Of a stretch of DNA of 40,751 bases, positions 8,063-39,218 are shown piece by piece. Under the pieces are notes generated by a model, which was not told the DNA's origin, searched no databases, and saw only the letters and a list, made by a program, of their open reading frames with translations. Every line of letters starts with the position of its first letter. The stretch's first letter is position 1. Made by a program: the position numbers and the translations under genes. This stretch comes from a virus: positions 1 through 40,751 of IMG/VR virus record IMGVR_UViG_3300031746_002943; one strand, given 5' to 3'.

Positions 8063-8071
8063 CTTTTCCTT

Positions 8072-20560: not shown

Positions 20561-21163
20561 TTACTCCTTTTTTACTGTTTCAATCTTGCCTTCCGGCAAT
20601 TTATATTCATCCTTCAGGATTGAATAAATTACCATATCCTTAAACTCTTCGTCTACTTTAAAACTCTTTCGTAATACGCCTTCTTTTATGAAACCTGCTC
20701 TTTCTGCTAATCGTCTTGATAGGAGATTATCGCTGAATGTCCGGTATTCTATGCGGTTAAATCCCGCGCCGTTAAAGCACCAGGAAACCATTGTCCGCAA
20801 GGCATCCTCGCTAAAAGTATATTTCCCCCGCTTTATAACCTTAAGCAATCCCCTTAAAACTTCCTTATCCAATATCCCCACAATCTTGCAGGAAAAAGGC
20901 GTAACATCGGTAAGATAGATATAACCGATTTTCTTGCTTGCCTTCCCCTCTTTGCTATAACAAGCCCAGGCCTTAATCTGTCCCGTCGCAAGAAGGGTCA
21001 ATACATATTTTCGCGCCTCTTCTTTGGTCATCTCGCGCAGGCAGAATCGCCCCATCATCCCATTTTTATCTTCCCTGTGAAGTTGGATAAAATGGTCTAA
21101 ATCTACTATTTCAAGGGGGAATAAAAGAACCCGTTTACCGATGATAGAATTATTTAAGTTCAT
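20561..21163 (-). CDS. GNAT acetyltransferase (RimJ/RimL-like)
   Basis: A 200-residue GNAT protein. IIGKRVLLFPLEIVDLDHF is the opening strand, GYIYLTD a core strand, and NRIEYRTFSDNLLSRRLAER followed by AGFIKEGVLRKSF is the acetyl-CoA-binding and C-terminal part. It would transfer an acetyl group from acetyl-CoA to a protein N-terminus, amino sugar or small molecule. It is lodged between the tail-fibre and internal-virion genes, 2-5 bp from each. It could acetylate an aminosugar or a virion protein; the substrate is unknown. Confidence 0.82.
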   Translation of the reverse strand: MNLNNSIIGKRVLLFPLEIVDLDHFIQLHREDKNGMMGRFCLREMTKEEARKYVLTLLATGQIKAWACYSKEGKASKKIGYIYLTDVTPFSCKIVGILDKEVLRGLLKVIKRGKYTFSEDALRTMVSWCFNGAGFNRIEYRTFSDNLLSRRLAERAGFIKEGVLRKSFKVDEEFKDMVIYSILKDEYKLPEGKIETVKKE

Positions 21164-23434: not shown

Positions 23435-24142
23435 TTAGAATACGTAAGTCATCCTTGGTTTTAGAATCGGAGATGAATATATCCGTTTCATTTTATCCAT
23501 TGCCCCCTCGATATCCTGGCCGTTACCGAATACCTGGACTTTATAGATAGACACTTCATCATTACCTAAGTAAGCCAATACTTTTAAAGTAGCCAAGGCC
23601 ACAAGTAAAGTCCTATCGAACGGTTCTGGTATATCGCACGTTCCCGTCGGCGTACCTGTGGCATAATAAGCAGGGAGTTTCCAATACCTGAAATCTATGT
23701 TCTTGCCGTTTTGTGTAGTTGTTGCCTGGTTATTGAATACGAAATATCCGGCGAATTTGGTATACTCATTGGGATATCCCGTCCTATCTGTACCTATACC
23801 ATCGGGGTATTTCTCATCCCATTCTTGTGGAGTTACGTAAGGAATATTAGAATCACTATCAGATTGCCTGAAACTTTTGATATCTTCAATCATCAAATCC
23901 GACCCCGTGGTAAGGCCGGAAATCAGATATTGATAACTCCCCGTAACCATCGGGATTACGCCTGCCTTCTCTAAGAATTGCCAGCGGGTATTCTCATCCG
24001 TGCAGATGTCCTGTATCGCCTCGATAATCTTATCCCATATTAAAAGTTGTAATCCCGATAAACTGCTTAATCCGGCAACAACGCTTTCGCCGCAATTCCT
24101 TGCTACTGTGTTAAAAGTCTCTAAAGCCGTTAATTTAGCCAT
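23435..24142 (-). CDS. Tail adaptor (gp11/tail tubular A-like) protein
   Basis: A 235-residue helical protein opening MAKLTALETFNTVARNCGES, then LLIWDKIIEAIQDICTDENT and WQFLEKAGVIPMVTGSYQY. This is the pattern of the T7-gp11/P22-gp4 adaptor family that joins portal to tail in short-tailed phages. The mid portion is the beta-rich insertion (RYWKLPAYYATGTPTGTCD) and the C-terminus is helical. It is placed between the coiled virion protein and the nozzle-like gene, as expected. Confidence 0.65.
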   Translation of the reverse strand: MAKLTALETFNTVARNCGESVVAGLSSLSGLQLLIWDKIIEAIQDICTDENTRWQFLEKAGVIPMVTGSYQYLISGLTTGSDLMIEDIKSFRQSDSDSNIPYVTPQEWDEKYPDGIGTDRTGYPNEYTKFAGYFVFNNQATTTQNGKNIDFRYWKLPAYYATGTPTGTCDIPEPFDRTLLVALATLKVLAYLGNDEVSIYKVQVFGNGQDIEGAMDKMKRIYSSPILKPRMTYVF

Positions 24143-24144
24143 TA

Positions 24145-25092
24145 TTACCTCTTATGCCCGAAGGCCATTAGTATATTCATATTATCCTTTGCCTCTTTCA
24201 TATAGGGTGAGCTTACAAAGTCATACAAGAATTGGTTAAGGCGTTTGATGTCATTCATAATTTCCTGTTTCGTCTTGATTATTTCCTTATCATTTGTATC
24301 GAGGGAATTAAGTTTCTCATGTAAAATATTAATTTTTTCCAGCAAAGTATCAAATTTGACGAATACTGTCCGCATGGATTTTACTTCCCGAACCATCTCT
24401 GTTGATTTTTCGCTGACTACATTGCTTATCTTTTGTTCAAAAGAATTTAGCAAAGAGATGAGATTGCTAAAATTGCCGGAATATTCTTTCTGGGTCTTCG
24501 GAACTTTCATTATCTCCCCCCTGATATTCAAAAGCATGTTTTTTAATTCACCTATTAGATTAGTATAATCAGGTATTTTGATTTCAGGAATGTTTATCGG
24601 AGGCAACTTTACTTCAGGCGCTAACGCGGTCAAACTAATTTCTTTAGCACTTTTTTTAAAGGCTTCTTCCATGTCAGTAAGCGGGACAGTGTTCTTTTTG
24701 GCTAATCCGTCAAGTTTATCGTTTATCTGTTTAAAATCAGTATTTTTCTCAATCAAACCTAATCTATCCATAAACAAAGCAAAAAATTCGCCTTGGTTCC
24801 TGATAGAATTATAAATCTTTTGTATCAATTCTACCCCTTCGGCAATGGCATCAATCTGATGCTGGTAATCTTCCGTAGAGTATCTGGGCGTTGCTTCCCC
24901 CGTATCCCAGAGAATAATAGCATCATAACCAGGCATAGTGATATTTGCAGCGTATATCCCGGTGCTAGTCCCCACCTCAACAACCCCTGAAGTTATGCGC
25001 GAACCGATAGCCACGCCATTGGCTCCATAAATCGTATAACCGATAGTTGCAAGTCCGCCTTTGGAAGAACCAAAATTAACTATACGCAGCAT
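24145..25092 (-). CDS. Coiled-coil virion protein (315 aa)
   Basis: The N-terminal about 80 residues form a beta domain seen in many tailed-phage genomes (IVNFGSSKGGLATIGYTIYG; GVVEVGTSTGIYAANI; ILWDTGEATPRYSTEDYQ). A linker with Pro-rich VKLPPINIPEIKIP follows, then long heptad-type coiled coils (SFEQKISNVVSEKSTEMVR; LEKINILHEKLNSLDTNDK). Probably a fibre/whisker or neck protein. It follows the methyltransferase gene. Confidence 0.6.
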   Translation of the reverse strand: MLRIVNFGSSKGGLATIGYTIYGANGVAIGSRITSGVVEVGTSTGIYAANITMPGYDAIILWDTGEATPRYSTEDYQHQIDAIAEGVELIQKIYNSIRNQGEFFALFMDRLGLIEKNTDFKQINDKLDGLAKKNTVPLTDMEEAFKKSAKEISLTALAPEVKLPPINIPEIKIPDYTNLIGELKNMLLNIRGEIMKVPKTQKEYSGNFSNLISLLNSFEQKISNVVSEKSTEMVREVKSMRTVFVKFDTLLEKINILHEKLNSLDTNDKEIIKTKQEIMNDIKRLNQFLYDFVSSPYMKEAKDNMNILMAFGHKR

Positions 25093-25093
25093 A

Positions 25094-25786
25094 TTATTCC
25101 TTTCTTTGCAATAACAGGTGCAAATCGTTATTCATTATGAACCTCTGCGATATATTCCTGCGTGAAAGGATAACATCGAACCCTGTCCGTTTGGCTATAT
25201 CCTCTAATTTATCCTTTTGGATGAATATATGGTTTTGTTTATAAGACCAATGGTTGAATTTACTTAAACCTATTTCAAATATCATTTCAGGGTTAGGATG
25301 GGTAATCAATAACAGGCCATTATAACTTAAGAGATCATATGCTTTGCGTAAGGCCCCAACCGGATTATGAAAACTTTCTAAGCAATGGCCCATCTGGATA
25401 TAATCAAAATGTTCCGGTATCGGGAAAGTTTCAAAATCACCTACAATATAATCGTTCGGCACAAGGTCAATCCCTACGCCAACCCAGCCTCTGGCTTTCA
25501 TATACTCAAGCGTATAGGCAAGCGTAAAACCGACATCTAAAAACTTGCGCCCGAATGTCATCTCTTCGATAAGAGGCAAGTATATACGTTGCAGATATTC
25601 AAAGCGCTCTTTCATATCAACAAAATTCTGCCATTTTCGCAGGTAGAGGTTGCCGAAATATTTTTTGTCTATCCCTGCTTCATGAAAAACCGTCCCGCAT
25701 ACGCAACGTCCCCAATCAATAGGCCGGATTTCTTCTATTATCTGGAAATCAATCATTACCTCATGTTTGCAAATAAGACATCTCAT
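25094..25786 (-). CDS. Class I SAM-dependent methyltransferase (sugar-type)
   Basis: A 230-residue enzyme with an N-terminal zinc knuckle (MRCLICKHEV then GRCVCGTVF), followed by the SAM-binding core FLDVGFTLAYTLEYMKARGW, GVGIDL, FDYIQMGHCLESFHNPVGAL and LLITHPNP. Four cysteines plus a Methyltransf_23-type core is the layout of methyltransferases that work with glycan and deoxysugar clusters. ATG 25786 overlaps the heptosyltransferase-like stop. It is buried in the structural operon, so a role in decorating a glycan or virion component is likely but unproved. Confidence 0.82.
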   Translation of the reverse strand: MRCLICKHEVMIDFQIIEEIRPIDWGRCVCGTVFHEAGIDKKYFGNLYLRKWQNFVDMKERFEYLQRIYLPLIEEMTFGRKFLDVGFTLAYTLEYMKARGWVGVGIDLVPNDYIVGDFETFPIPEHFDYIQMGHCLESFHNPVGALRKAYDLLSYNGLLLITHPNPEMIFEIGLSKFNHWSYKQNHIFIQKDKLEDIAKRTGFDVILSRRNISQRFIMNNDLHLLLQRKE

Positions 25787-26757
25787 TGGCAATACACCTT
25801 CTCAATTTGTTCAATAACCTTATCCTGCGGAAAGCCAAAGGCTACACACCAGGGCGCACGTGATAAATGTTCCACAGGACATTCTACATCCGCATTATTT
25901 ATTAAACGGAAACACGGAGCGCAATCAACTTGCGACTCCAATGAATAATCATTGATAAAATATTTAGTCAAACATTCTTTTGTAGTGTGGGTAAGAAAGC
26001 CTATCTTCGGGGTATCGAAACATCCGGCAAAATGCAATACGCCGGTTTCAGGGGCCACTACTAAAGAAGCATATTTACAAGCAATAGCGGTTTCCCTTAA
26101 CGACCATTTACCTGATTTATGGATACAGCGCTCATGCTCTAATCCTTCTTCAAATATCCGGCAAGCATCATCCCCTACGGTAATAATTATGATATTCTTA
26201 TGTTTCATCAATAACTGTTCTATGACTTGGCGGGTATAGGGATAGGATTTATGCCTTGCGCTTCCGGCTATACACCACACAATAACGAATTTACCGATAA
26301 AATCGCACCTGAATAACGCACTCTTTTCCTCTTCCTCCCCGGTAAAAAACATTTCCGGGCGCTTGCCTGTTATTTCCGGAAATCCCGCGGCCTCAAATAC
26401 GGCATCATAGTGGTTTTTATTGCCCCTTAAAAATCTCTCCTGTTTTGAATAGTTATATACAGGGTCAGAAGGATGGAATAAGTATTTGACCTCGACACAT
26501 TCGCAGAGGTTTAAAATCTTATCGCATTTATTTTCTTTAGCAACATTGCCAAAATATTCGCCTAATTGCTCAATAGGAACGGTATCGTGTATGTATTCTA
26601 TTAATTTATCAATAAAAGGATTGCACTTTAATATCTGCACACCTAATTCAGAAGTAAGGCAATATACTTCGTTACCCTGTTCTTTTAAATAACGCACAAG
26701 GGGCGAAATCTGGATGCAATCACCGATAGCCGCTATGCGGCAGATTAAATATCTCAT
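25783..26757 (-). CDS. GT9 (heptosyltransferase-type) glycosyltransferase
   Basis: A 324-residue GT-B enzyme of the ADP-heptose:LPS heptosyltransferase family. The N-terminal domain begins MRYLICRIAAIGDCIQISPL (dinucleotide-fold start with the GD signature); the C-terminal domain has WSLRETAIACKYASLVVAPE and ETGVLHFAGCFDTPKIGF, the GT9 donor-binding block. It would add a heptose-like or related sugar to lipopolysaccharide or a protein. Genes before and after are coupled by ATGA overlaps inside the virion operon, unusual for a host-type LPS enzyme. Confidence 0.85.
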   Translation of the reverse strand: MRYLICRIAAIGDCIQISPLVRYLKEQGNEVYCLTSELGVQILKCNPFIDKLIEYIHDTVPIEQLGEYFGNVAKENKCDKILNLCECVEVKYLFHPSDPVYNYSKQERFLRGNKNHYDAVFEAAGFPEITGKRPEMFFTGEEEEKSALFRCDFIGKFVIVWCIAGSARHKSYPYTRQVIEQLLMKHKNIIIITVGDDACRIFEEGLEHERCIHKSGKWSLRETAIACKYASLVVAPETGVLHFAGCFDTPKIGFLTHTTKECLTKYFINDYSLESQVDCAPCFRLINNADVECPVEHLSRAPWCVAFGFPQDKVIEQIEKVYCQ

Positions 26758-27083
26758 AAGTATTTTTGCCTTACCTGTTCGCCATCCATCACTTTTTTCA
26801 TATTATTTATAAGATGTAATACACAGCGCTCATGATAATCCTGACAAAATGAATTCCCGCAGTGTAACGGCCTTTTTAACTTAAAATTCCACCTGCGCTG
26901 CATGATTATCTGCGGGATGTCCTTGGTTGAATAGTTGTACCATTTACCGCAAATATCGCATTTTAAGTCATGGGTCATCGCAGTTTCACCGGGCCTGCGG
27001 TACATACGGCTGACCCAAGGTTTCTTAAACCCGTCTTTTCTCCAATCTAACTTCTGAAATTTATTACTTATGATGTATGGCAT
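26754..27083 (-). CDS. Zinc-ribbon protein downstream of the capsid gene
   Basis: A 109-residue basic protein with CDIC and CGNSFCQDYHERC motifs, probably one or two zinc sites. The CGNSFCQ segment matches the 46-residue peptide at 34246-34386 (CGDFFCQ), so the two are related. It lies after the capsid-gene terminator and is coupled by ATGA to the GT9 gene. Function unknown; possibly nucleic-acid binding. Confidence 0.65.
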   Translation of the reverse strand: MPYIISNKFQKLDWRKDGFKKPWVSRMYRRPGETAMTHDLKCDICGKWYNYSTKDIPQIIMQRRWNFKLKRPLHCGNSFCQDYHERCVLHLINNMKKVMDGEQVRQKYL

Positions 27084-27113
27084 ATAAAGACAAGGGGCGG
27101 ATTGCTCCGCCCC
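27084..27113 (-). terminator. Terminator-like hairpin after the major capsid gene
   Basis: On the minus strand GGGGCGGA-GCAA-TCCGCCCC forms an 8-bp GC stem with a GNRA tetraloop, followed by TTGTCTTTAT (a weak U-tract). It lies directly after the capsid stop and before the next gene, so it probably gives partial termination or 3' protection and lowers downstream expression relative to capsid. Confidence 0.7.
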
Positions 27114-27121
27114 AGTTGATA

Positions 27122-28078
27122 CTACTTACTTGTGATGTGGATAATCCTCTCCAAACCATTCAGATCACTTGATGTCCCATCAACAACTCTATCCCACATC
27201 TTTGCATGACCGAGAATCGCATACCACATGAGGAACTTAAACCTGCCACCTTCCTCTTCGTAGTAACGTAATTCTTCGGGTAACGCCAGAGCTTCAACAA
27301 CTGCCTCGTCTCCGAACAAAAATGCTTCGCCAAAATTCGAACCACCGGCAGAGTTATCGGCCTGCATATTATCCTCGACAAAGCGGACGCCGTAATACTT
27401 TCCGACTTCATCTTTGAACCTAAACTCCGGTTCGGCATATTGCGCGACAGATTGTAGTTCATCATAGAGGCCAGAGATGAAATCTGTTGCACCTACGCAA
27501 ACGTACATTGTCCCAAGCTTAGGAATATGCGCCTTCTTAGCATAATCGGTGATATAGCGCATCTGTCCTACTGAAACAGCGTTTGTGGCCGTAGATGTAG
27601 CCGTACCGTTTGTCATAATCTGAATATGCGTTTTCCCGGTGTTGGTAGCGGTTGCCTTGAACTTAGCCGTAGCAAACTGGTTGTAAATATTAAGGTCAAT
27701 CGCATCCACCTGGTCATCGGTTAAACCTTTTCCGTATTCAGCCTTAATATCGAATTTAGAAAGGGTTTCCGCTTTCTGGCCGTAGTTGACTTTATTGCCA
27801 AACTCTGAAACAGAACAAGTACCTTTTGTGATTTTGATGGTGCGTGCGGTCATCTGTGAAGTTTCAACAAGCGTTGTACCGCGCGTATCAATGCGTAACC
27901 GCTTTGAAAATGTGATAACATCGCCTGCGTTAGCCCCTATACCATCCTTTTTATCAACAAACTGGCGATAGACAAATAGACCTAACGCCTGCGCCCTCAT
28001 CTGCGCTGACAACTTTTGGTTCGCCAAATAGCTGCCATACGTAGTCCAATCGTGAATAGGTGAATAATTAGTAGGCAT
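27122..28078 (-). CDS. Major capsid protein (N4 gp56-like, HK97 fold)
   Basis: A 318-residue protein following a scaffold-like gene. It opens with TTYGSYLANQKLSAQMRAQA, then AGDVITFSKRLRIDTRGTTL (N4-gp56 family region), YITDYAKKAHIPKLGTMYVC, SGLYDELQSVAQYAEPEFRF, and a C-terminal domain EAFLFGDEAVVEALALPEEL. This matches the N4-gp56 major capsid family with an HK97 fold. It lies in the usual position after portal and scaffold and has a terminator behind it, as expected for the most highly expressed late gene. Confidence 0.9.
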   Translation of the reverse strand: MPTNYSPIHDWTTYGSYLANQKLSAQMRAQALGLFVYRQFVDKKDGIGANAGDVITFSKRLRIDTRGTTLVETSQMTARTIKITKGTCSVSEFGNKVNYGQKAETLSKFDIKAEYGKGLTDDQVDAIDLNIYNQFATAKFKATATNTGKTHIQIMTNGTATSTATNAVSVGQMRYITDYAKKAHIPKLGTMYVCVGATDFISGLYDELQSVAQYAEPEFRFKDEVGKYYGVRFVEDNMQADNSAGGSNFGEAFLFGDEAVVEALALPEELRYYEEEGGRFKFLMWYAILGHAKMWDRVVDGTSSDLNGLERIIHITSK

Positions 28079-28091
28079 TATTTTTTACCTC

Positions 28092-28820
28092 CTAAAGTGT
28101 CCTTTTTCTTTTTGCCTCATTCGCCTGTTCCAATTCCTCAAGAGGGCTTAACTCTTTCAGAGGCTCTGGGGACTTAGGCGGTAGATTTCCTCCACCACCT
28201 TCTGCCCTTGCGCCATCAGGTAAAGGCGGTGCGGCATTTTTCTTTTGTGCGTAACTTTCAAACTTTGATTTGACAAAATCAGTTGCCGCTTGCACGGCTT
28301 CTTCCGGTTTCTTGTATTTGCCTGTCGTAGCAAACGCATTGGCCTGTTGTATAATCACGTTGACAATATCATCATCAAATTCCGGGTTAGATGTTTTTAC
28401 GCCTAACTTCAATCTTTCCAAGGTTGTTTGCTGATGAATAACTACCTCGGCCTGCCGGACTGCTTCCTGAGCCGATTGTGTCTTTACGTCAGATAAAAGA
28501 GAAGCCATTTCAGCGTCAGCTCCGTCAGGGTCATAAGCCCTGCGTTCATTGATTTGGCTAAGGCGTTGTTTCATTGTTTCATCAGTGCCTTGCTTTACCT
28601 TCGCTTCATCAACTTGCCTCTGCCTTGTCTCGATAGTGGCCTTAGTAGTTTCAAGGTCGGATATCTTGGCGTCTTTCTCTTTTAGTTTATCCTGGACTTC
28701 TTTTATTTGCTTCTGTAAGTCCTCGACAGAAGGGCCCTGATTAGCCGGTGGTAGATTAGCAGGAGCATCGCCCACAGGCGGTTGTCCTTCTTTTCCAGTC
28801 GGTTTTATTTCGTCAGCCAT
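28092..28820 (-). CDS. Scaffolding protein (capsid assembly)
   Basis: A 242-residue, acidic, helical protein: DLQKQIKEVQDKLKEKDAKI, then DLETTKATIETRQRQVDEAK (coiled coil) and a Pro/Gly-rich C-terminus. Located immediately before the major capsid gene, it matches the size and character of phage scaffold proteins that guide procapsid assembly and then exit. AGGAGG upstream of the ATG lies in the stop region of the 50-residue gene. Confidence 0.78.
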   Translation of the reverse strand: MADEIKPTGKEGQPPVGDAPANLPPANQGPSVEDLQKQIKEVQDKLKEKDAKISDLETTKATIETRQRQVDEAKVKQGTDETMKQRLSQINERRAYDPDGADAEMASLLSDVKTQSAQEAVRQAEVVIHQQTTLERLKLGVKTSNPEFDDDIVNVIIQQANAFATTGKYKKPEEAVQAATDFVKSKFESYAQKKNAAPPLPDGARAEGGGGNLPPKSPEPLKELSPLEELEQANEAKRKRTL

Positions 28821-28823
28821 TTG

Positions 28824-28976
28824 TTACCTCCTGTTTAATTGCCTTTTGGCGAGTGTTACCCCCCTTAAGGCGTTTGGTTTTTGAAAAACTTTATCCCAAT
28901 CCATCGCGTTCTTATCTTTATCGGAAGCCTGTAAAGGAACGCTAAAACTCTTTTTTTCAAAATCACAGCCTATCAT
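28824..28976 (-). CDS. Small hypothetical protein (50 aa)
   Basis: ATG 28976 overlaps the stop of the preceding gene (ATGA), and the stop AGGAGGTAA serves as the ribosome site of the scaffold gene. The sequence MIGCDFEKKSFSVPLQASDK continues DKNAMDWDKVFQKPNALRGV, with no Cys pairs or membrane segment. A conserved-looking small virion-operon protein, function unknown. Confidence 0.6.
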   Translation of the reverse strand: MIGCDFEKKSFSVPLQASDKDKNAMDWDKVFQKPNALRGVTLAKRQLNRR

Positions 28977-29257
28977 TCCGCTTTCTTTATGTTAAGATAC
29001 TGCTCGTTATATTTTTTCCTGGCGTTCTCTCCAAATTGCAAATCAACGGAAATATCGTTCATAATCTCTTGGATAGCGTTAATCGCCCCCCGTGCTTCGG
29101 GATTTTCTTTTTCTATTAACTCGTTCATCGCGCTGTCATATTTAGCCTGGATTATCTCCTGAATAACCATCCATCCACTTGTTTTTAATGTCTGGTCAAT
29201 CCGGCTTGCCTTCAACGCATCGTGCTTTAATTTTTCTTCCTTAGTTTTTTTCACCAT
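28973..29257 (-). CDS. Small helical hypothetical protein (94 aa)
   Basis: A highly charged, helical protein (KTKEEKLKHDALKASRIDQT; NELIEKENPEARGAINAIQE; FGENARKKYNEQYLNIK). It lies between a glycosyltransferase and the scaffold, overlapping each by a base or a few. It could be an assembly chaperone or packaged protein. Not recognised. Confidence 0.6.
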   Translation of the reverse strand: MVKKTKEEKLKHDALKASRIDQTLKTSGWMVIQEIIQAKYDSAMNELIEKENPEARGAINAIQEIMNDISVDLQFGENARKKYNEQYLNIKKAE

Positions 29258-29991
29258 TATACAAAATCCTTTGTTCGGGTTATCTCGTTTAAAAACTTTT
29301 TTACATCATCCGGCAGGGTAGGCCAGTTATATTTATTACTCAATTCTCCGCCTCCTGCCCAATGCATGGCCTTTAATTTACGCTCCCCGATAAATAAACC
29401 CTGATGCCTAATCTTGATTTTATCCCAATGCTCCCGGCCGGTTTCGTTGTAATAACATCCTTCTTTGTCCACCATCAGGCATTTATACTTGCCGTTAAAA
29501 GCCAGATAATTCATAACGTCCTGCTCCAAATAATCAAATTTCTGCTCTCCGATAAACTTTTTGTCATAGGTCAGATTTTTCCACTCTTCGGCAAGCTCTT
29601 TACTTCTTACCGCTGTCACCCCTAAGTTGCAATAATCGGGGAAGCGCTTATAATCTATCCCGCCCACATTCTTACAATTTAAAGAACAGGCTATGTCATA
29701 ATCACAATCAAGGAATTCATCGAGCCGGGAAGTTACCACTACATCGGCATCAAGTTTAATCACTACTTCATAATTCTTTTTGTAATGGCTAATCATCTTC
29801 ACGGAAAGATTAGCAAAAGAGCTTCCGAATACCGGCACAACCGCTTCGCCGAATATTTCGAGTTCATCAAAAGGGGTTATAATCTCGCAGGGAATATCAT
29901 CATGAAAATAGCAAAATGACTTCCTTACCCTTTCAGCTAAATAATAGGCTATATCATCGTTGACTGTAATAAATGCGATTGCTTTTTCCAT
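29257..29991 (-). CDS. GT-A (GT8-like) glycosyltransferase
   Basis: A 244-residue nucleotide-sugar transferase. The N-terminal strand/helix MEKAIAFITVNDDIAYYLAE is followed by VVIKLDADVVVTSRLDEFL, whose D-A-D is the DXD metal-binding motif. YNLGVTAVRS-type CNLGVTAVRSKELAEEWKNL and YLEQDVMNYLAFNGK correspond to the acceptor/catalytic region of GT8-like enzymes; KAMHWAGG near the end fits the C-terminal HxG block. It lies between the portal-adjacent Lys-rich gene and the scaffold set, so it is transcribed with capsid genes. Acceptor unknown. Confidence 0.8.
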   Translation of the reverse strand: MEKAIAFITVNDDIAYYLAERVRKSFCYFHDDIPCEIITPFDELEIFGEAVVPVFGSSFANLSVKMISHYKKNYEVVIKLDADVVVTSRLDEFLDCDYDIACSLNCKNVGGIDYKRFPDYCNLGVTAVRSKELAEEWKNLTYDKKFIGEQKFDYLEQDVMNYLAFNGKYKCLMVDKEGCYYNETGREHWDKIKIRHQGLFIGERKLKAMHWAGGGELSNKYNWPTLPDDVKKFLNEITRTKDFV

Positions 29992-30188
29992 TAATCCTTA
30001 AAGTTAGTCGCCTTCTTCATTTTGTTATCAGCGGGATGTTTATAATCTGTCGGTTTCCACCCGTGTTCTACGGCATTAAGCAATCTTTCCTGTTTCATTG
30101 CTTTTTTCTTTGTAGTCTTTTTTGCTTTTACTCCTTTTGGAGTTGAGACTTGGAAACCGCCTTTTACTTTTTTGACTTTAACCGGCAT
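29991..30188 (-). CDS. Small basic phage protein (65 aa)
   Basis: A Lys-rich protein: VKKVKGGFQVSTPKGVKAKK, then KQERLLNAVEHGWKPTDYKH. This family is common next to portal or terminase genes in many tailed phages, generally of unknown function. It shares a base with the portal stop and the next gene start, so it is co-translated. Confidence 0.75.
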   Translation of the reverse strand: MPVKVKKVKGGFQVSTPKGVKAKKTTKKKAMKQERLLNAVEHGWKPTDYKHPADNKMKKATNFKD

Positions 30189-32029
30189 TACATCCTTCCT
30201 GCCATTGCTGGCTGTTGTCCGGGTTGCCCTTGTTGTCCAGGCGCACCCGAATATAACTGATTCATTATCATTTTTATTTCTTCATCTGTTTTCATTAAAT
30301 CGCTGTAATCCCCTATCTCCGCGGCTTGCAATACGCGCTTATATATCTCTTCAACCTTAGAAATAATCATCAGTTGTGGAGTCTTGACTACGGTAAGCAA
30401 TAATTCTTTTAGCTTCTGCAATGTTTCAATCGCTTTGGCAAATTGCGTCATGCCTACGGCCTTAAAATCAAAAGCCATATCTCCGGCCTGGGATATTTTA
30501 TTAAAATCTAACTTAGGCACCATTTGTTTTTGTTTCATAGGCTGTTGGGATATCGGGTCAATACCTGCCACAACTTCAATTTCCTTTAAGCCTAAAATTC
30601 TATCTATTAAGGCTTGGCTGAAAAATTTAGGATTAAACAATATCTTAAATATTCCCTTAAGTATCGGTTCAACATAATCCCGTTCGATAAAGCGCCCTAT
30701 CTTTAAAAAGCGGTTATCTATCATCGCAAGCTTGGCTTGATATTCTCCGAGCGTCCCTGTATCGCTTAATTCAGCGGCCTGGCCTACTTGCCGGGGTACA
30801 CCGCTGGCCTCTTGGTCAAATTGGTCTAACACGGTTAAACCTTGAATAATCTGGCCTAATGCCGAAATACCCTGCCTTGTTAATGATACCGCTGCCCTGG
30901 GGTCTCCCCTAACAAGCCAAACAGCCATAGGCTTATATTCAAGGCTTGATGCGTCTTTAATCTTAGTCTGGTCAACTACGGCAATGTCCATAGAACACAT
31001 CTTTAAACTGTCAAATCCAAGGTTAATCATTGAGTTGGTTAGCTCTTGCAAATCATGGGTATTTTCACAAAAGCCCAAGCCGTAGGTATCATAAAGGCGA
31101 GGCTTAACCCGGCATGGGAATATCGGGATAAATCCATAGGCGTTTTTTACATCTCTTATCTTCACTTTGTCGTTTACAACAACGACAATCTTATCTACCA
31201 TGCGATACTGCTTGATCGTTTTTTCTCCCGACTTTTCATCAAAACTTTCCTTAACCTTGCCCCAATATTCAACTACATTGACCTCAAACCAATCCTTAGC
31301 AATAGTTACCTGACTTGTGCCGTCAATACCTTTTACTGTCACTAAATCAGCGTCAGTTTTACCTTGTCCAGCTTCCTCGGCCTCATCAATTACTTTTTGT
31401 ATTGCTTCTTTCGAATATAGCGGGGCAGGATTAGACAAATCATCCACCAACTCATCAATTGTCTTTTTATATTCATCACAAACATATTTTTTCTTATTCC
31501 AGTTGTAGCCGCAGGAAGGGTCAAAGGAAATGTTGTAAGCAGAGCGCCAGATAAAATCAATTCCGCTGCGGTCGGGCTTGACTAACATTTTTATAAAGCC
31601 TGTCCCAATGTCGCAAGCCTCGTGCATTATAAAATCGTTTTCTAAATAGAAATTGCCACGATCAAGAACGACATCATATAAATCCATAATGTAACCAGAC
31701 TCTTCTTTATCTTTTTTTTCAACGCCGGAGATATTATGGAAGCGTTTTTGGCCAAAGAGCATCTTGTCCAGGTAAGCAGCGGCGGCCTCGGTTTTTTTAG
31801 CTTGCTGGGGTATGAATACTTTTGACTGCCAATCTTCCTTATTTTTCCAGGCTTCAGGATGTACGCAGCGTATTTGGCTTATAATATTATCCCAGACAGT
31901 TTTAAACTTCTTGCGATAATCAACAGCTGTACTGTGGTTACGCTTTACAAAATCCACTATCTCAATATCAACATCAACTTTGTCAACAGGCTTTTGCTCC
32001 GATTTTATTTTCTTTATTGATTTTTTCAT
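30188..32029 (-). CDS. Portal protein
   Basis: A 613-residue protein of portal size following the large terminase. N-terminal wing IVDFVKRNHSTAVDYRKKFK; AWKNKEDWQSKVFIPQQ is the signature block seen also in a 42-residue peptide elsewhere in this genome; DLYDVVLDRGNFYLENDFIM, ACDIGTGFIKMLVK and WRSAYNISFDPSCGYNW follow; ELTNSMINLGFDSLKMCSMD and LAMIDNRFLKIGRFIERDY precede the C-terminal barrel and crown. A Gly/Gln-rich tail ends the protein. Forms the ring through which DNA enters and leaves the capsid. Confidence 0.87.
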   Translation of the reverse strand: MKKSIKKIKSEQKPVDKVDVDIEIVDFVKRNHSTAVDYRKKFKTVWDNIISQIRCVHPEAWKNKEDWQSKVFIPQQAKKTEAAAAYLDKMLFGQKRFHNISGVEKKDKEESGYIMDLYDVVLDRGNFYLENDFIMHEACDIGTGFIKMLVKPDRSGIDFIWRSAYNISFDPSCGYNWNKKKYVCDEYKKTIDELVDDLSNPAPLYSKEAIQKVIDEAEEAGQGKTDADLVTVKGIDGTSQVTIAKDWFEVNVVEYWGKVKESFDEKSGEKTIKQYRMVDKIVVVVNDKVKIRDVKNAYGFIPIFPCRVKPRLYDTYGLGFCENTHDLQELTNSMINLGFDSLKMCSMDIAVVDQTKIKDASSLEYKPMAVWLVRGDPRAAVSLTRQGISALGQIIQGLTVLDQFDQEASGVPRQVGQAAELSDTGTLGEYQAKLAMIDNRFLKIGRFIERDYVEPILKGIFKILFNPKFFSQALIDRILGLKEIEVVAGIDPISQQPMKQKQMVPKLDFNKISQAGDMAFDFKAVGMTQFAKAIETLQKLKELLLTVVKTPQLMIISKVEEIYKRVLQAAEIGDYSDLMKTDEEIKMIMNQLYSGAPGQQGQPGQQPAMAGRM

Positions 32030-32211
32030 TTACACAATACCGCCTCTTCTTTACTTCCTTGCCTTTGGGTCTTATTGTCTGCCCTTAAGATATTCGGGCA
32101 ACTCTGCCTTACCACATAATTAGCGAAACATCTTAAATTTATGTTAGGTTCTTTAAACCAGCAAATCTCATTTGTGCCGCAGAAGAAACGCTTGGGTTGT
32201 TCATTTACCAT
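32026..32211 (-). CDS. Small Cys-containing protein between terminase and portal (61 aa)
   Basis: ATG 32211 overlaps the terminase stop, with AGGAG 7 nt upstream, and its stop overlaps the portal ATG. The sequence (NEICWFKEPNINLRCFANYV; VVRQSCPNILRADNKT) has five scattered Cys and no pair pattern. Position between terminase and portal with coupled starts favours a real gene; function unknown. Confidence 0.62.
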   Translation of the reverse strand: MVNEQPKRFFCGTNEICWFKEPNINLRCFANYVVRQSCPNILRADNKTQRQGSKEEAVLCK

Positions 32212-33704
32212 CCAGCCGCTCCTGCGAATACCGGTTTCTTAAGAGGTAAAGACATACTCTCCTTATCTGGGAATGTTGCTCCTAAATCTTGCTCTAATAT
32301 TCTTGCCATACCATCAAACATATCATCGTGAGAACAAACTGGAAAAGTAGAATATTCGTTATCAATAAACTCATTGATAAAATCATGTATCTTTTTATCA
32401 TTCCCAACAAAAATGATTTCTTTCGGAATATAAAACCTTTTATTTTCAAATACAGGCGTAAGCCTTCTGATTCTATCAATCTTTGACATGGGACCGCCAA
32501 GCGGGGTTATCTCAAACCTAAATTTCTTTTCTTCTTGAACATACTGGATATGCTCTATATCACAACTAAGTCCATATTCTTCATATCCAACATTTAAAGG
32601 ATTCCACTTGGCTTTTAATTCAAAAAGTTTATTTGTCCGTTCCGTCAAATTTAACTTATCCCTTAGCCCATCCAATAAATAATAATTTTTATCAGCACAT
32701 AGGCCGATAACAACCATAACAGTAAAATCGTTATTTACTTTCTTCTTAGACGCGGGATCAACTAAAATGTAAATATTCAAATTATCAATATCAACCTCGC
32801 CATAATATCTAAGCCATTCTGCCTTAAATCCCATGACATTATCGGCTAAGGGATTTTGTAATAACTGACAAGCGGCTACATAGCTCCCCATATCTCTGAC
32901 TTTTTCATCAAATTTAGTTTGAGATAACAAAACAGGAATCCCCCCCAACTTTCCATTATCAGTTGCCGGATAAATACGAGCCTTAGCCGCTCCTCTGTCA
33001 AGAATCACCTTGTAAGTATCATTAATGTGATACCTTGTCCCTTCGTGCCTTCTTTTGCAATCATTAGTCCCAAGATTTAATGATAAAGCCCAAGCTTCTG
33101 TAACTTTTTGTATCATTTCAGGAGTGCTTACTGATTCCTTAGTTACGACATCGTTATAAACAAGAATTTTAAAATGTTTTGAAGTAGGTTGCCCATCTAC
33201 TAAACCCCAAGCTTCAACCGTACTCTCTTTTGGGTTTCCTTTGCGCTTTACGATTATCCCATCGTCAAGCGACCACTTCGGAGATTCTTTCTGGGGGTCT
33301 TTATACAAAACCTCTGGGAATAAATCCTTTAGGAACGAATTAATTTCAAATTCTCTTTTAATCTGCGTAAGAAATGATTTTGCAATAGGGCGGGTATGGC
33401 TGAAAATTCCAAAGGTAAGTTCCGAATCGCCTAAGATTTCTTTAATCGTATAACCAAATGTGATAATCGTGCTTTTATAATGTTCTCTTGCCCATAAGTC
33501 TAAATATCCATCAGGAGCAGATTCAAACTCTCGACAACGTTCATAAATCCAATCACGATTAACATCTTTTCTTTTACAAGCTATAAAGAGCAAGAAAAAT
33601 AAATCCTCAAGACATAATCTACGCATAGCAACAGTATCTTGAGCTTCCAAAACTTCACGATATAATTCTAAAGATTTTTCTCTGTTAAGGCATTGACAAA
33701 GCAT
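32205..33704 (-). CDS. Large terminase subunit (packaging ATPase/nuclease)
   Basis: A 499-residue TerL. GYLDLWAREHYKSTIITFGY is the Walker A-like region (REHYKST, as in many TerL with REHFKST). KILVYNDVVTKES is the Walker B region, where Asn stands in place of the first of the usual two Asp. ILVDPASKKKVNNDFTVMVV opens the RNaseH-like nuclease and CSHDDMFDGMARIL is its HDD-x2-D catalytic end. It packages DNA into procapsids at the portal. ATG 33704 lies 20 bp inside the small terminase gene end. Confidence 0.9.
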   Translation of the reverse strand: MLCQCLNREKSLELYREVLEAQDTVAMRRLCLEDLFFLLFIACKRKDVNRDWIYERCREFESAPDGYLDLWAREHYKSTIITFGYTIKEILGDSELTFGIFSHTRPIAKSFLTQIKREFEINSFLKDLFPEVLYKDPQKESPKWSLDDGIIVKRKGNPKESTVEAWGLVDGQPTSKHFKILVYNDVVTKESVSTPEMIQKVTEAWALSLNLGTNDCKRRHEGTRYHINDTYKVILDRGAAKARIYPATDNGKLGGIPVLLSQTKFDEKVRDMGSYVAACQLLQNPLADNVMGFKAEWLRYYGEVDIDNLNIYILVDPASKKKVNNDFTVMVVIGLCADKNYYLLDGLRDKLNLTERTNKLFELKAKWNPLNVGYEEYGLSCDIEHIQYVQEEKKFRFEITPLGGPMSKIDRIRRLTPVFENKRFYIPKEIIFVGNDKKIHDFINEFIDNEYSTFPVCSHDDMFDGMARILEQDLGATFPDKESMSLPLKKPVFAGAAGW

Positions 33705-34247: not shown

Positions 34248-34386
34248 AGAATAGACGGGTTTTTCTTAATTGAATTGTCTTGCGTTTTTTACGCATTAAT
34301 ATAATATGATGTTTGAATTGACAAAAAAAATCCCCACAAGTTTTTTTCTTAATCGGTCTGTGTTTACAATAAGGACATTTTATCAA
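34246..34386 (-). CDS. Small zinc-finger protein (46 aa)
   Basis: TTG 34386 with GGAG 7 nt upstream opens MIKCPYCKHRPIKKKTCG, followed by DFFCQFKHHIILMRKKRKT. It holds CPYC and CGDFFC motifs (C-x2-C-x9-C-x4-C) and a very basic tail. It resembles the CGNSFCQ region of the 109-residue protein behind the capsid gene. It follows the glycosyltransferase-radical SAM fusion and precedes the late promoter, a suitable place for a late regulator; that role is speculation. Confidence 0.6.
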   Translation of the reverse strand: MIKCPYCKHRPIKKKTCGDFFCQFKHHIILMRKKRKTIQLRKTRLF

Positions 34387-36269
34387 ACCGAATTCTCCTT
34401 TTGTATTGCCGGAATAATCTTTTTAGCGTTGAATGGCCTCCCATTACAGAAATCGCAAGCCCGTTCATTATTCGATATCCCTAACCGCGCCAGATTAGCA
34501 GCAAAAGCGCAATGATATAATTTGCCATTAGAAAGCGTCATATTCTTTGAGCAACAATCTAAAAACATCTTGTCCAATTCTTCCGCAGTCCTATGATTCT
34601 CTTTAATCTCTCCGCAATCTGTCCATTCCGGTTTAATGACTTTATGATTAATTGATTGTTTTTGGAGCAAGCCTATAAAATCCCATAAACGCTCATTAGA
34701 CAACTTCCCATAATCAGTTATATAAAGACAGATTTTTTTATCTCGCAACAATTCAATATTCGGAAATATCGTTCCATTGGTATATATCACAATCCGCTTA
34801 ACCTTGGGGTTCTTGCTTAAAGCCTCCACCAATATGGGCCAATCTTTATTCATAAACGGCTCACCGCCTATAACCCTGATTTCTCCTATCTTGGCATAAT
34901 GCAATAGAATATCTAAGTTTTTTAATATCCTCTCAATATCACAGTCTTTAGGCTCTTTGTAATATTGCATAAGATTAGAGCAGTCTTGACAACGCAAAGA
35001 ACATCTTTCAGTTATAATCAGGTCAAGGCTGCGGATAAAGTATCTTTTCTTATAGCTTTGATTAGCCTCAATACAAATTTCAAGGCAAAACTTATCATAG
35101 CCAATAGCCGTAAGCTGTCTTAATAACTTAACCGTCTTTGAATAGATTATATTCTTATACCCAAGTTTCTTAGCCACATCTTTGACCGCCCCCGTAGTAA
35201 CCATATATTTTGCGTCAGGAAAGCGTATCTTAGCTTCGTTAATCGTAAACACAGCAAGGCCACAGAAGCTGTCTTTAATTACCTCATCGCAAAAGCACTC
35301 TACTCTTATGCCCTTTTCCTGGCATTTCTCTAACAAGAGCCTGCCTGTTGCGCCTGCGCCAAAGATAATCAAGGGGATGTATCTCTTTACCGCCTTTATC
35401 CGGCAAATTAGCACTAATAAACCATAAGCCCTTAACTTAAGCAACAGAGGGATTATCCGGCTATTGCCTTTAACATGAATATAATCCCTTAAGCTAATAC
35501 CGTTAAAAAGCTCTCTTATAAAGTTATATTGCTCCCCAAAGCTTCCTTTACGGCAGGCCCGGACTATCTCAACTATCATTAGAGAAATATTGCAATGGGA
35601 AAGCAGGACGCTATTGTTTACTAACTTAGAAATCCTTTGCAGTAACCACATACGCTCAAAGTCTGCGTTAAATATCTCCATTCCTTTGCCGGAAGTTGAT
35701 ACGGTATGCAAAACTGTCTTTTCGTTTATGAATGTTACTACTTCACAATGCTGTAAATAATGAAAGACAAACTCGGTATCTTCGTGTTTCTCCATAAGAT
35801 AGTTAAACCTTATATTGTTTTCTTTGATGATCCGCGCCTTAAAGAGCTTGCCCCAGACAAAAGCAAACTCGGTATTGCGGTTAGGAGATAAAAGATATTG
35901 TTCTGTCTTTAATTTTATTCTCCACCAATCCAAGGTATCTTCGTTATAGCCGCTAATTATCAAATCCTCTGAATGTCCGGTTAATCTTAAAAGTGCTTCT
36001 TTATCAACCAAGCAATCATCGGCATCAAGAAATACGATATATTCTCCCCTTGCTTCTTCTATCCCGCGATTCCTGGCGGCCGATACGCCTTTATAGAAAG
36101 TCCGTATAGTTACAATAGGAAAACGCATACAAATTCTAAAGGTATCATCGGTTGAGCCGTCATCTACTACGATAACTTCAAAATCCGCATAATCCTGAGC
36201 TAACACGCTCTTGATACACCGCTCTATCGTAGCTTCGGCATTATAAGCAGGAATGATTACACTTATCAT
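34383..36269 (-). CDS. Glycosyltransferase - Rossmann - radical SAM fusion protein
   Basis: A 628-residue multidomain enzyme. Residues 1-230 are a GT2 glycosyltransferase (VIIPAYN at 5-11, VVDDGSTDDT, the DADD metal motif at 82-85, GVSAARNRGI). Residues 298-380 are a nucleotide-binding fold (PLIIFGAGATGRLLLEKCQ; YMVTTGA) like the sugar-linked Rossmann of PglD/FkbM-associated proteins. Residues 416-628 are a radical SAM domain with C423-x3-C427-x2-C430, GGEP at 468-471 and later Cys pairs (ACDFCNGRPF). It may build and modify a glycan on one scaffold. It is unlikely to be a host housekeeping enzyme, and such fusions are rare. Confidence 0.83.
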   Translation of the reverse strand: MISVIIPAYNAEATIERCIKSVLAQDYADFEVIVVDDGSTDDTFRICMRFPIVTIRTFYKGVSAARNRGIEEARGEYIVFLDADDCLVDKEALLRLTGHSEDLIISGYNEDTLDWWRIKLKTEQYLLSPNRNTEFAFVWGKLFKARIIKENNIRFNYLMEKHEDTEFVFHYLQHCEVVTFINEKTVLHTVSTSGKGMEIFNADFERMWLLQRISKLVNNSVLLSHCNISLMIVEIVRACRKGSFGEQYNFIRELFNGISLRDYIHVKGNSRIIPLLLKLRAYGLLVLICRIKAVKRYIPLIIFGAGATGRLLLEKCQEKGIRVECFCDEVIKDSFCGLAVFTINEAKIRFPDAKYMVTTGAVKDVAKKLGYKNIIYSKTVKLLRQLTAIGYDKFCLEICIEANQSYKKRYFIRSLDLIITERCSLRCQDCSNLMQYYKEPKDCDIERILKNLDILLHYAKIGEIRVIGGEPFMNKDWPILVEALSKNPKVKRIVIYTNGTIFPNIELLRDKKICLYITDYGKLSNERLWDFIGLLQKQSINHKVIKPEWTDCGEIKENHRTAEELDKMFLDCCSKNMTLSNGKLYHCAFAANLARLGISNNERACDFCNGRPFNAKKIIPAIQKENSV

Positions 36270-36960: not shown

Positions 36961-37294
36961 CTTTCTTCCTCGGTTCTCTATCCTTTCCCCCAAAGGGTCT
37001 TCCTAAACGTTGACCTCTTAATTTTGCTTTTTTTAAACCTTGTAAAGTTTGTTTACTTCTTGATATTCTCATATAAGAAAAAGCTTCAGGATATTTCTCT
37101 CGCATATAACATTCCATTAAAGAAACACCTAATATTTTTTCTATCTTTTTTATTTTCTGTAAAGAAGGAGGAGAGTTATATTTTTCAATTTTAACAATAT
37201 AGGGTTGAACTACACCAAGCTTATCCGCCAAAGTTTGCATTGTGATACCTTTTTTTACTCGCGCTTCTCTTATCAATGCACCTAATTTTTTCAT
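36923..37294 (-). CDS. XRE-family transcriptional regulator
   Basis: A 123-residue protein with a clear XRE helix-turn-helix (KKLGALIREARVKKGITMQT, LADKLGVVQPYIVKIEKYNS, PSLQKIKKIEKILGVSLME). A basic C-terminal tail with GQRLGRPFGGKDREPRKKDG follows, resembling the GRPKGSKDK-type AT-hook-like tail of phage regulators. ATG 37294 overlaps the stop of the reductase (ATGA). It likely controls the sugar cassette or the genes to its left. Confidence 0.8.
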   Translation of the reverse strand: MKKLGALIREARVKKGITMQTLADKLGVVQPYIVKIEKYNSPPSLQKIKKIEKILGVSLMECYMREKYPEAFSYMRISRSKQTLQGLKKAKLRGQRLGRPFGGKDREPRKKDGYFNRYNKGSC

Positions 37295-38025
37295 TGACTT
37301 GCCTCCCAAAGTTCCTTAACTGCTTGAATAAGCGGAGTAATAAAAAAACCATAATTACAATTTCCCGCGTAAGAATGATAGAAATTTTCACTCTCTACAT
37401 CTATCTTTATCGCTCGCCATAAATCTCTTTCGGCGATATTTCTCAATATCATCGCATAATCAAGTAAACTGTAAGTATATCCTACAATGCAAAATAAACT
37501 GTTACAATACCCAACTCTTTCTACAATAGGCGACAAATCATTAACATAGACATAGCTAAATAGCTTATTTTCTTTAACCAAAATTGGCAACCCCTGTTTA
37601 ATCCTGGCTATATTAGCGGCAAAAAAGCGGATAGACCGCTCATACTTGCCAAAGCAGCCCCAGAGTTGAATAACGCTAATATGTTTATATTTACTCAACG
37701 CCAATTCTTTTGTAATGTGCTTGGATAAAACATACTCCCCGTTCTTGTAAGCCCTGTCCTCAATCTCTCTGCCGGTGCAGAAGGTTATCATTGGAATATG
37801 ACTCTCTGCAAGATTGTGAAACATCCGCAAGTTATCATAGAGGCATATATCATCATCATTAGAGGCGCAATGGATAATCGCCTCCGGTTTGTTGGCTCGG
37901 AGATAATCTTTAACCTTGTCGGCATCTGTCAAATCCAATTCTGTATGCGTGGGGCAAAGCATAGGCGGCATAAGCTCTTTTAAATTTCTTCCTATCATTC
38001 CCGTACTACCTAACAAAAGTTTCAT
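37291..38025 (-). CDS. Short-chain sugar-nucleotide reductase (YerF/RfbJ/RmlD-like)
   Basis: A 244-residue SDR protein. LLLGSTGMIGRNL is the nucleotide-binding motif, AIIHCASNDDD the cofactor loop, YVLSKHIT supplies the catalytic Tyr/Lys (YxxxK), and FSYVYVNDLSPIVERV corresponds to the substrate wall. In the CDP-3,6-dideoxyhexose and yersiniose pathways the last enzyme is such a reductase, which reduces a keto group after the E1 and C-C bond steps. ATGA overlaps on both sides place it in the same polycistron as the E1-type dehydrase. Confidence 0.78.
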   Translation of the reverse strand: MKLLLGSTGMIGRNLKELMPPMLCPTHTELDLTDADKVKDYLRANKPEAIIHCASNDDDICLYDNLRMFHNLAESHIPMITFCTGREIEDRAYKNGEYVLSKHITKELALSKYKHISVIQLWGCFGKYERSIRFFAANIARIKQGLPILVKENKLFSYVYVNDLSPIVERVGYCNSLFCIVGYTYSLLDYAMILRNIAERDLWRAIKIDVESENFYHSYAGNCNYGFFITPLIQAVKELWEASQ

Positions 38026-39218
38026 TTTACTCCCTCCATAAATTCGTCAAACTGCTTAATCACATAATCAATCTGCTCATCTGTTAATCCAGGATAGACA
38101 CCGAACCAGAATAGATTATTCATAACTAAATCAGTATTGGCCAAATCCCCCACTATCCTATGCTCTATATTTTTATAAGCTGGCTGTTTCAATAGATTAC
38201 CACCAAAAAGCATACGGGTCTGAATACCCTTAGATTCTAAAAACCCGACAATATCTGCTCTGGTAAATTTATCGGTTGCGACAAGTAAGGGAAAGCCAAA
38301 CCAGGAAAGTTCATTTCTTATTGTTATCTTTGGCAGGCTAAAATCGTTCCCATATTTTCCTAAACCAGAATAAAGTTTAGCAAAATTCTTTCTTCTTGCT
38401 TCTATAAAGCACGGGAGTTTTTTTAACTGCGCCGCTCCAATAGCAGCCTGAAATTCTGTCATTTTCAGGTTATAGCCAATATGAGAATAAATATATTTAT
38501 GGTCATAGCCATAAGGCAAATCGCCAAGTTGTTGATTAAAGCGCTTACCGCAAGTGTTATCATGTCCTGGAAGACAAGAGCAATCACGGCCCCAATCCCT
38601 GAATGAAAGCAGGTTTTTATAAATCTTCTCATCATTGGTAAACACCGCCCCACCCTCACCCGTAGTGATATGATGGGCTGGATAAAATGATAAAGTAGAA
38701 ACATCCCCGAATGTCCCTGTTAATCTACCATTAAGCCTACTTCCTAAAGCATCGCAATTATCTTCCATAACATATAAATTATGCTTTCTTGCTATCCACA
38801 TTATCTCATCCATATTAGCCGGATTACCTAAAGTATGTGGCACAACTATCGCCTTTGTTTTTTCGGTTATGACTTTTTCCAGCCAGGCAGTTTCCATGTT
38901 GTAAGTGCCAAGTTCTATATCAACAAACACAGGCACAAGCCCATTCTGGATTATAGGGTTAAGTGTAGTAGGAAAACCGCAGGCAGTGGTAATAACCTCG
39001 CTCCCTTTTGGTAATTCAAGCGCAGAGATAGCCAAGAGATTAGCGGATGAACCGGAGTTACACAAGACACAGTATTTCATCCCCATAAATTCACGCAGGC
39101 CATCGCTGAATTCTTTACACCACTTGCCTTCTGTAATCCGCGGCTCTTTGATAGCATCCAGCAGATTATTTTTTTCTTCTTCATCAAAAATCTGTCCGGC
39201 ATAAGGTACTTTTATCAT
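38022..39218 (-). CDS. CDP-4-keto-6-deoxyglucose 3-dehydrase (E1, RfbH/DdhC-like)
   Basis: A 398-residue member of the DegT/AHBA PLP family bearing both special signatures of E1. The PLP Lys is replaced by His: SFYPAHHITTGEGGAV, His 182 at the Lys position. Cysteines at 155, 213, 215 and 223 give exactly C-X57-C-X1-C-X7-C, the [2Fe-2S] motif of Yersinia E1. It would remove the 3-hydroxyl of CDP-4-keto-6-deoxyglucose together with E3 reductase and PMP. CDP-glucose pyrophosphorylase and E3 are not in the window and would be host-supplied. Slightly shorter than Yersinia E1 (437 aa). Confidence 0.9.
   Translation of the reverse strand: MIKVPYAGQIFDEEEKNNLLDAIKEPRITEGKWCKEFSDGLREFMGMKYCVLCNSGSSANLLAISALELPKGSEVITTACGFPTTLNPIIQNGLVPVFVDIELGTYNMETAWLEKVITEKTKAIVVPHTLGNPANMDEIMWIARKHNLYVMEDNCDALGSRLNGRLTGTFGDVSTLSFYPAHHITTGEGGAVFTNDEKIYKNLLSFRDWGRDCSCLPGHDNTCGKRFNQQLGDLPYGYDHKYIYSHIGYNLKMTEFQAAIGAAQLKKLPCFIEARRKNFAKLYSGLGKYGNDFSLPKITIRNELSWFGFPLLVATDKFTRADIVGFLESKGIQTRMLFGGNLLKQPAYKNIEHRIVGDLANTDLVMNNLFWFGVYPGLTDEQIDYVIKQFDEFMEGVK

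Follow-up and report, generated by a model that had tools for sequence, protein, structure and literature searches.

Why does a virus of bacteria encode glycosyltransferases and methyltransferases among the genes for its own particle, and what might these enzymes decorate? The question is raised by the IMG/VR record IMGVR_UViG_3300031746_002943, 40,751 bases of an uncultivated virus of bacteria, which were analyzed as a whole and are referred to here as the window. An earlier note on this DNA had listed four open reading frames (ORFs) encoding a member of glycosyltransferase (GT) family 9 (GT9), a methyltransferase, a GNAT acetyltransferase, and a GT8-like glycosyltransferase. All four exist, and all lie on the minus strand within the run of virion genes. 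We predict from the genes that GT9 and its partner methyltransferase, joined in this sub-lineage by the GT8-like enzyme, probably form a module that glycosylates and methylates virion proteins late in infection.

The GT9 protein (25783..26757, minus strand, like all enzymes in this paragraph) scored 33.1 bits against PF01075 (E 4.8e-8; curated cut-off 22). The catalytic Asp13 is kept (RIAAIGDC, D13), the G-D pair being invariant in nine relatives, and the C-terminal D/E-T-G-x2-H motif is present as APETGVLH, with Glu replacing Asp. Profile matches in the PDB were 3tov, 2gt1, and 1psw. The bacterial GT9 enzymes WaaC and WaaF share the family, the GT-B enzyme type, and the position of Asp13 with the window protein, which differs from them in an additional C-terminal cysteine motif (C-x-P-C ... 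C ... C) and in a score far under the cut-off of the NCBIfam model for heptosyltransferase I of lipopolysaccharide (LPS) synthesis (TIGR02193, 33.9 bits vs 185.3, E 1.9e-8). The partner is a class I S-adenosylmethionine (SAM)-dependent methyltransferase (25094..25786 with an ATG start, to 25792 if TTG is used; PF13489, 7.5e-15), whose Methyltransf_23/11 domain reached 55.5 bits (cut-off 27). Its N-terminus carries a zinc-ribbon-like CxxC...CxC segment with four cysteines that are invariant across eight relatives. The GNAT protein (20561..21163; PF13302, 8.3e-10) is encoded among the tail genes of the operon and has homologues in the same place in at least six relatives (L006, L058, L062, L069, L099, and L102). 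The family labels of these three proteins were thus significant, whereas the GT8-like GT-A enzyme (29257..29991, between portal and scaffold) remained under the Pfam cut-off (PF01501, 13.1 bits, E 0.07; cut-off 24.3) and owes its label to conserved motifs (DxD as KLDADVV, NLGV, LEQD, and HWAGG), to homologues in the related contigs L002, L004, and L005, and to its fold. The profile of its sequence family had no match in the PDB, and the fold comparison was used instead. The top Foldseek match in the PDB was the A064R-D1 domain of Paramecium bursaria chlorella virus 1 (PBCV-1; 2p72/2p6w), followed by the GT8 enzyme GlyE and glycogenin (E 1e-6 to 1e-4; predicted local distance difference test (pLDDT) of the model, 60). 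The catalytic motifs of the module enzymes are intact.

The module keeps its place in relatives. A search of IMG/VR with the major capsid protein (MCP) yielded relatives at 42–68% identity, and a scan with a nine-sequence GT9 profile yielded 62 distinct loci. Gene calling and profile labeling resulted in 57 non-redundant loci with a capsid gene, a set drawn using GT9. A full-length GT9 gene was found downstream of the capsid gene in 49 of these 57 loci, the first one at a median of 501 bases past the capsid stop, and every GT9 preceded the adaptor-side genes wherever such a gene was in view (32 of 32 loci). The methyltransferase directly followed GT9 in 56 of 82 cases. The usual gene order is scaffold, MCP, a cement-like gene, GT9, methyltransferase, variable sugar genes, a second GT9, methyltransferase, and adaptor. 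A sample collected by the capsid protein, and hence free of GT9 bias, consisted of 15 contigs including the window, six of which stop soon after the capsid gene and are uninformative. In all nine that extend more than 4 kb past the MCP gene, glycan enzymes are encoded in this stretch; eight of the nine have GT9 and methyltransferase there. In the remaining one, L127, this position is taken by GT4, GT2, GT1, an RGP-type protein, and a hexapeptide transferase, and a GT9 with methyltransferases sits upstream of the packaging genes. Neither type of GT9 described below nor the GT8-like enzyme had a match when 50,697 records of deposited phages were searched with the proteins. A deposited Vibrio podophage shares the MCP, the adaptor, and the protein encoded in the window at 21916-23433, and has no cement, GT9, or methyltransferase gene at the corresponding place; the module is therefore dispensable for assembly as such.

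The GT9 tree contains two clades, a with 32 entries (28 in first position) and b with 57 entries, mostly in second position or single. The window GT9 belongs to clade b. Judged by this tree, GT9a and GT9b are ancient paralogues, each with its own methyltransferase partner (MTa and MTb). The trees of GT9b and MTb follow those of capsid, portal, and scaffold, with correlations of patristic distances (r) of 0.71–0.93 (GT9b-portal 0.93, GT9b-MCP 0.80, MTb-portal 0.89, MTb-MCP 0.71; for comparison, MCP-portal 0.91). Map closeness does not explain this link, because the a block sits between the capsid gene and GT9b. GT9a and MTa, by contrast, follow the cement-like gene (r 0.65 and 0.57) and the backbone less well (0.33–0.58). 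The link between GT9a and the cement-like gene holds beyond the MCP, with a partial r given MCP of 0.55 that none of 999 permutations equaled. For GT9b and the cement-like gene, the corresponding value was 0.13 (112 of 999 permutations as high). By its inheritance, GT9b is a core late gene, which does not make the capsid protein its acceptor. We do not claim a specific action of GT9b on the MCP, as GT9b follows the whole backbone including portal and scaffold.

The earlier note had named free swapping as unrelated cargo as the outcome that would speak against a role in the virion. That the enzymes are moron cargo placed in the late operon by chance would fit the variability of the genes between the two pairs (GT2, GT4, radical SAM, hexapeptide transferase, and DegT). 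The pairs themselves, however, keep place, order, and paralogue identity across MCPs sharing only about 40% identity, and the inheritance of GT9b tracks the backbone, so that we regard this explanation as very improbable. The cargo-swap reading is largely refuted by co-inheritance for GT9 and the methyltransferase; GNAT and the intervening genes lie outside that refutation.

The cement-like gene directly follows the capsid gene. Its products form one family of about 140 residues, found in 53 loci by profile search and rich in Thr, Gly, and Ala, with no known domains; a PHROG search of 40 members gave one weak match. The predicted model (40 sequences, pLDDT 91) is a beta sandwich, for which the strongest Foldseek matches include tail-fibre domains. 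Two matches were of similar length, 7dou, a trimeric cement protein from phage KHP40, and 7eel, one chain of the capsid asymmetric unit of cyanophage Pam1; the family was labeled cement-like for this reason. No cement gene was found in any frame of the window, and the cement gene, GT9a, and MTa are all missing in both the window and L002. Among loci with enough sequence, GT9a was present in 31 of 43 with a cement gene and in none of the four without one (Fisher p 0.01).

The borders between shell genes and enzyme genes are marked by putative terminators. In the window, a GC-rich, terminator-like hairpin with a T-rich tail (27113-27094, minus strand) stands directly after the capsid gene and before GT9. 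Similar hairpins follow the capsid gene in L002, L004, and L005, which likewise have no cement gene (four of five loci of that kind). Where a cement gene is present, a hairpin follows the cement gene in 29 of 47 loci (3.2 in shuffled sequences) and the capsid gene in nine of 47. Hairpins are rare after other late genes, except the gene before capsid (9 of 28). Such a pattern would be expected where abundant shell proteins are encoded ahead of enzymes that act catalytically, and its simplest reading would be a single transcript yielding much shell protein and less enzyme behind the hairpin. Since the hairpin separates capsid from GT9, expression of the genes behind it in the window probably stays below that of the capsid gene. 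The proposal that the enzymes are expressed simultaneously with particle assembly needs amending in this respect for GT9 and the genes after it. Coupling by ATGA overlaps applies to GT9 on both sides (26754/26757, and 25783/25786 with the methyltransferase), whereas the GT8-like gene is joined to its neighbors by one-base TAATG overlaps and GNAT and others by gaps of one to four bases. The overlapping gene upstream of GT9 (26754..27083, minus strand) encodes a small zinc-ribbon-like protein (C-x2-C ... H-C-G ... C) recognized by alignment and synteny; it lies between capsid and GT9, is conserved in nearer relatives only, and is possibly a partner of GT9 and the methyltransferase.

In the mechanism that we favor, GT9 and the GT8-like enzyme would add one or more sugars to one or several virion proteins in the host cytosol during particle assembly, and the partner methyltransferase would then methylate the sugar or its end. 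Because the b-type pair belongs to the inherited virion core, the acceptor of the window pair would most likely be a core protein of the virion, the capsid protein or a different one, while the a pair of other phages would most likely serve the cement protein. We infer that the acceptor is a virion protein, and likewise its identity, the sugar, and the placing of the methyl group on the sugar. Decoration of virion proteins, one of two targets suggested before, is the best-supported reading; the other, a tail-bound receptor glycan, found no support of its own. A more far-reaching version is conceivable, though we hold it with some doubt: the two pairs would be specialized for the core shell and the cement protein, respectively, and supplied with phage-made rare sugars (a CDP-branched dideoxyhexose in the window, a 3-amino-dideoxyhexose in L117/L118), and the particle would bear a coat of methylated glycans comparable to that of chloroviruses.

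Part of the activated-sugar supply may indeed come from the phage itself, as a pathway to a cytidine diphosphate (CDP)-3,6-dideoxyhexose appears to be encoded across the genome ends. This nucleotide-sugar cassette had been overlooked before, as had a GT2–radical SAM fusion upstream of the terminase gene. All genes concerned are on the minus strand. At one end, a nicotinamide adenine dinucleotide (NAD)-dependent sugar dehydratase closest to CDP-glucose 4,6-dehydratase (2..889; PF01370, 1.5e-49; PDB 1wvg, 9.4e-35) runs into the terminal repeat; its best NCBIfam match, TIGR02622 (4.3e-49), was under the cut-off. It is accompanied by an HpcH/HpaI-type aldolase (886..1719; PF03328, 6.9e-6) and a thiamine pyrophosphate (TPP)-dependent carboligase gene (1772..3291; PF02776, PF00205, PF02775), which is closer to PDB 8rph (1e-57) than to acetolactate synthase (5e-35) and is split into two overlapping frames (1772-2806 and 2764-3291), either by an assembly error or because the gene is disrupted. 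The other end encodes an RmlD-like, NAD-dependent sugar reductase/epimerase (37291..38025; PF01370, 2.2e-7; PF04321, 1.7e-6), a homologue of which lies upstream of the terminase in L002; RfbH, the CDP-4-keto-6-deoxy-D-glucose 3-dehydrase (38022..39218; NCBIfam PRK15407, 591 bits vs a cut-off of 423; PDB 3bcx, 6e-137), with the active-site His that replaces the pyridoxal phosphate (PLP)-binding lysine (SFYPAHHIT); and a radical SAM/SPASM protein (39570..40604; PF04055, 3e-26; PF13186, 4.2e-5). The fusion protein of 628 amino acids (34383..36269; PF00535, 7e-31; PF04055, 7.8e-11; CxxxCxxC at 423) combines its domains in an unusual way and is encoded immediately upstream of the packaging genes, with a strong terminator-like hairpin in between (34156-34120, minus strand; 17 pairs, then a T-run), so that the sugar cassette probably forms a separate transcript. 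CDP-4-keto-3,6-dideoxy sugars are the substrates of YerE-type enzymes, and the donors of ErwE are hydroxylated 2-oxo acids (PMC12247030). By analogy, the window would make a CDP-activated branched dideoxy sugar, and the aldolase may supply a hydroxy-2-oxo acid donor of the ErwE kind. RfbH, the CDP-glucose 4,6-dehydratase-like enzyme, the TPP carboligase, and the reductase correspond to the CDP-3,6-dideoxyhexose and 4-C-branched sugar pathways (yersiniose, erwiniose); the window differs from these in being a phage genome, in the split TPP gene, and in that no cytidylyltransferase was recognized in it. In L117/L118, the stretch separating the a pair from the b pair encodes a QdtB/WbpE-like aminotransferase, an FdtA-type ketoisomerase, an RmlD-like reductase, an epimerase, and a sugar C-methyltransferase; such genes for sugar synthesis within the capsid island connect it with the making of glycans. 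An assignment of the DegT gene of L117/L118 as RfbH was dropped, as its PLP lysine is kept (FYPTKNLG) and it matches aminotransferases of the QdtB/WbpE type.

Several points weigh against a virion target. The module is predicted from its genes, and no glycan or modified virion was observed. The correlations stem from fast trees of non-independent loci on tens of related contigs, the loci without the cement protein number just four, and co-inheritance with the virion backbone is expected of any old core gene and does not single out an acceptor. The model behind the fold match of the GT8-like enzyme has a pLDDT of 60, with values below 50 over much of its C-terminal third. Finally, bacterial GT9 enzymes act on the LPS core, which makes host LPS a possible acceptor.

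On that last point rests the chief alternative, in which GT9 and the methyltransferase alter the LPS core or O-antigen of the host late in infection and block superinfection or the sticking of progeny to debris, with the GT8-like enzyme, the GT2–radical SAM fusion, and the sugar cassette serving the same end. The relation of GT9 to the LPS heptosyltransferases, distant as the TIGR02193 score is, would suit such a role, modification of the LPS core requires no phage flippase, and RfbH, CDP-dehydratase, and YerE-type proteins are O-antigen enzymes in bacteria (PMC12247030). Yet no polytopic membrane protein of the flippase or Gtr type is found among the window enzymes, and at least two membrane segments were predicted in just three of 381 island proteins. 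Gtr-type O-antigen conversion, with a GtrA flippase and a polytopic transferase beside a GtrB-like GT, was rejected for the same lack of a flippase or polytopic partner among the window enzymes. Since modification of the host surface also fails to account for the constant position behind the shell genes, the association of GT9a with the cement gene, and the hairpin pattern, we consider it unlikely.

Glycosylation of modified bases in the phage DNA was considered as well, as phage GTs acting on DNA are known (Pyle 2024, as cited in PMC12619734) and the window encodes a C5-cytosine methyltransferase (5427-6332; PF00145, 1.2e-50) along with the radical SAM proteins. However, no TET/2-oxoglutarate dioxygenase or base hydroxymethylase was found among the window ORFs scanned, and the complete relative L003 (G002) has two GT9-methyltransferase pairs and no match to the C5-methyltransferase of the window. 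The enzymes also adjoin shell genes rather than replication genes, and this explanation is accordingly given hardly any weight. A C5-cytosine methyltransferase is also present in L011/L060.

Phage particles are usually taken as bare protein, and to our knowledge the proven examples of glycosylated phage virions are few. Virion glycosylation by phage enzymes as such is already known: in the mycobacteriophage Che8 and its relatives, phage GTs glycosylate capsid and tail subunits (Freeman et al., 2023, as cited in PMC12619734 and PMC11256854). These tailed phages, like the lineage of the window, bring their own glycosyltransferases. Their virions carry glycans, whereas the evidence for the window lineage is genomic, and in the F1 mycobacteriophage Maravista the GTs lie near the 3′ genome end (PMC11256854), while the GT9-methyltransferase pairs stand directly after the shell genes. 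The closest worked-out parallel to the proposed mechanism is, by analogy, PBCV-1, in which the GT domains and the sugar O-methyltransferase of A064R and A061L assemble a methylated glycan carried by the major capsid protein; A064R combines two GT domains with a sugar methyltransferase domain and caps the capsid N-glycan (PMC9614988). That A064R-D1 is the best fold match of the GT8-like model supports this parallel in a suggestive, not decisive, manner. PBCV-1 differs in being a eukaryotic virus, in its GT families except for the GT-A fold, and in using a multidomain protein in place of separate genes. The capsid-linked GT9-methyltransferase module appears not to have been described previously; among open-licence papers, no matching report on a glycosylated capsid plus decoration protein or on GT9 near phage capsids was found, which is a weak absence. 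The module is widely conserved in metagenome-derived contigs and so closely tied to the shell genes that it predicts which enzyme serves which shell protein, and it could act as a marker to recognize sugar-coated phages in metagenomes. If true, the proposal would matter for the stability of the particles, their adsorption, and their persistence in the environment and would provide a bacterial-virus parallel to chlorovirus capsid glycans.

The layout of the genome frames these findings. The window is probably a complete genome, because it has a perfect direct terminal repeat of 126 bases (1-126 and 40623-40748); the repeat of the related contig L003 measures 127 bases. Nearly all recognizable genes are on the minus strand, including the virion genes that follow. 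The order of transcription begins with the terminase large subunit (32205..33704; phrog_38, 6.8e-46), the portal/head-tail adaptor (30188..32029; phrog_332, 1.7e-29), an ORF of 65 amino acids, the GT8-like gene, an ORF of 94 amino acids, a scaffold-like protein (28092..28820; position and family conserved in 22 loci, pointing to this function), and the MCP (27122..28078; phrog_1357, 1.2e-13). The zinc-ribbon-like gene, GT9, and the methyltransferase come next, followed by a virion-side protein (24145..25092) with homologues in the same place in seven loci, an adaptor-like protein of the SU10 adaptor family (23435..24142; PF24175, 1.4e-5, just under the cut-off), 21916-23433, 21168-21911, GNAT, 19716-20558, and further tail-side genes. 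The placing of the enzymes among portal, scaffold, capsid, and tail genes is thereby borne out, with terminase, portal, capsid, and adaptor-like neighbors identified. The GC content of the enzyme genes (0.39–0.41) matches the genome value (0.40) and thus gives no sign of recent acquisition.

The capsid gene is interrupted in five contigs (L070, L107, L113, L086, and L139) at the same place, profile residue about 92–95, by an insert with its own ORF, which resembles an intron or a comparable element inserted at a conserved position. In L006, an ORF with a LAGLIDADG-like motif (GFFDGEG; 7624-8196) lies directly upstream of the capsid gene. The window ORF 14822-16687 contains a direct repeat (15611-15688/16085-16162, 81% identical) and, together with the adjoining collagen-like protein (14034-14813), possibly represents a fibre. 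Contigs of this phage family also occur in two metagenome-assembled genomes of Omnitrophota (L013/L140 in G003:C95 and L139 in G007:C58), with portal-scaffold-capsid-cement-GT9 in one and GT9-zinc ribbon-GT9-methyltransferase in the other; they are a lead to the host or a result of co-binning.

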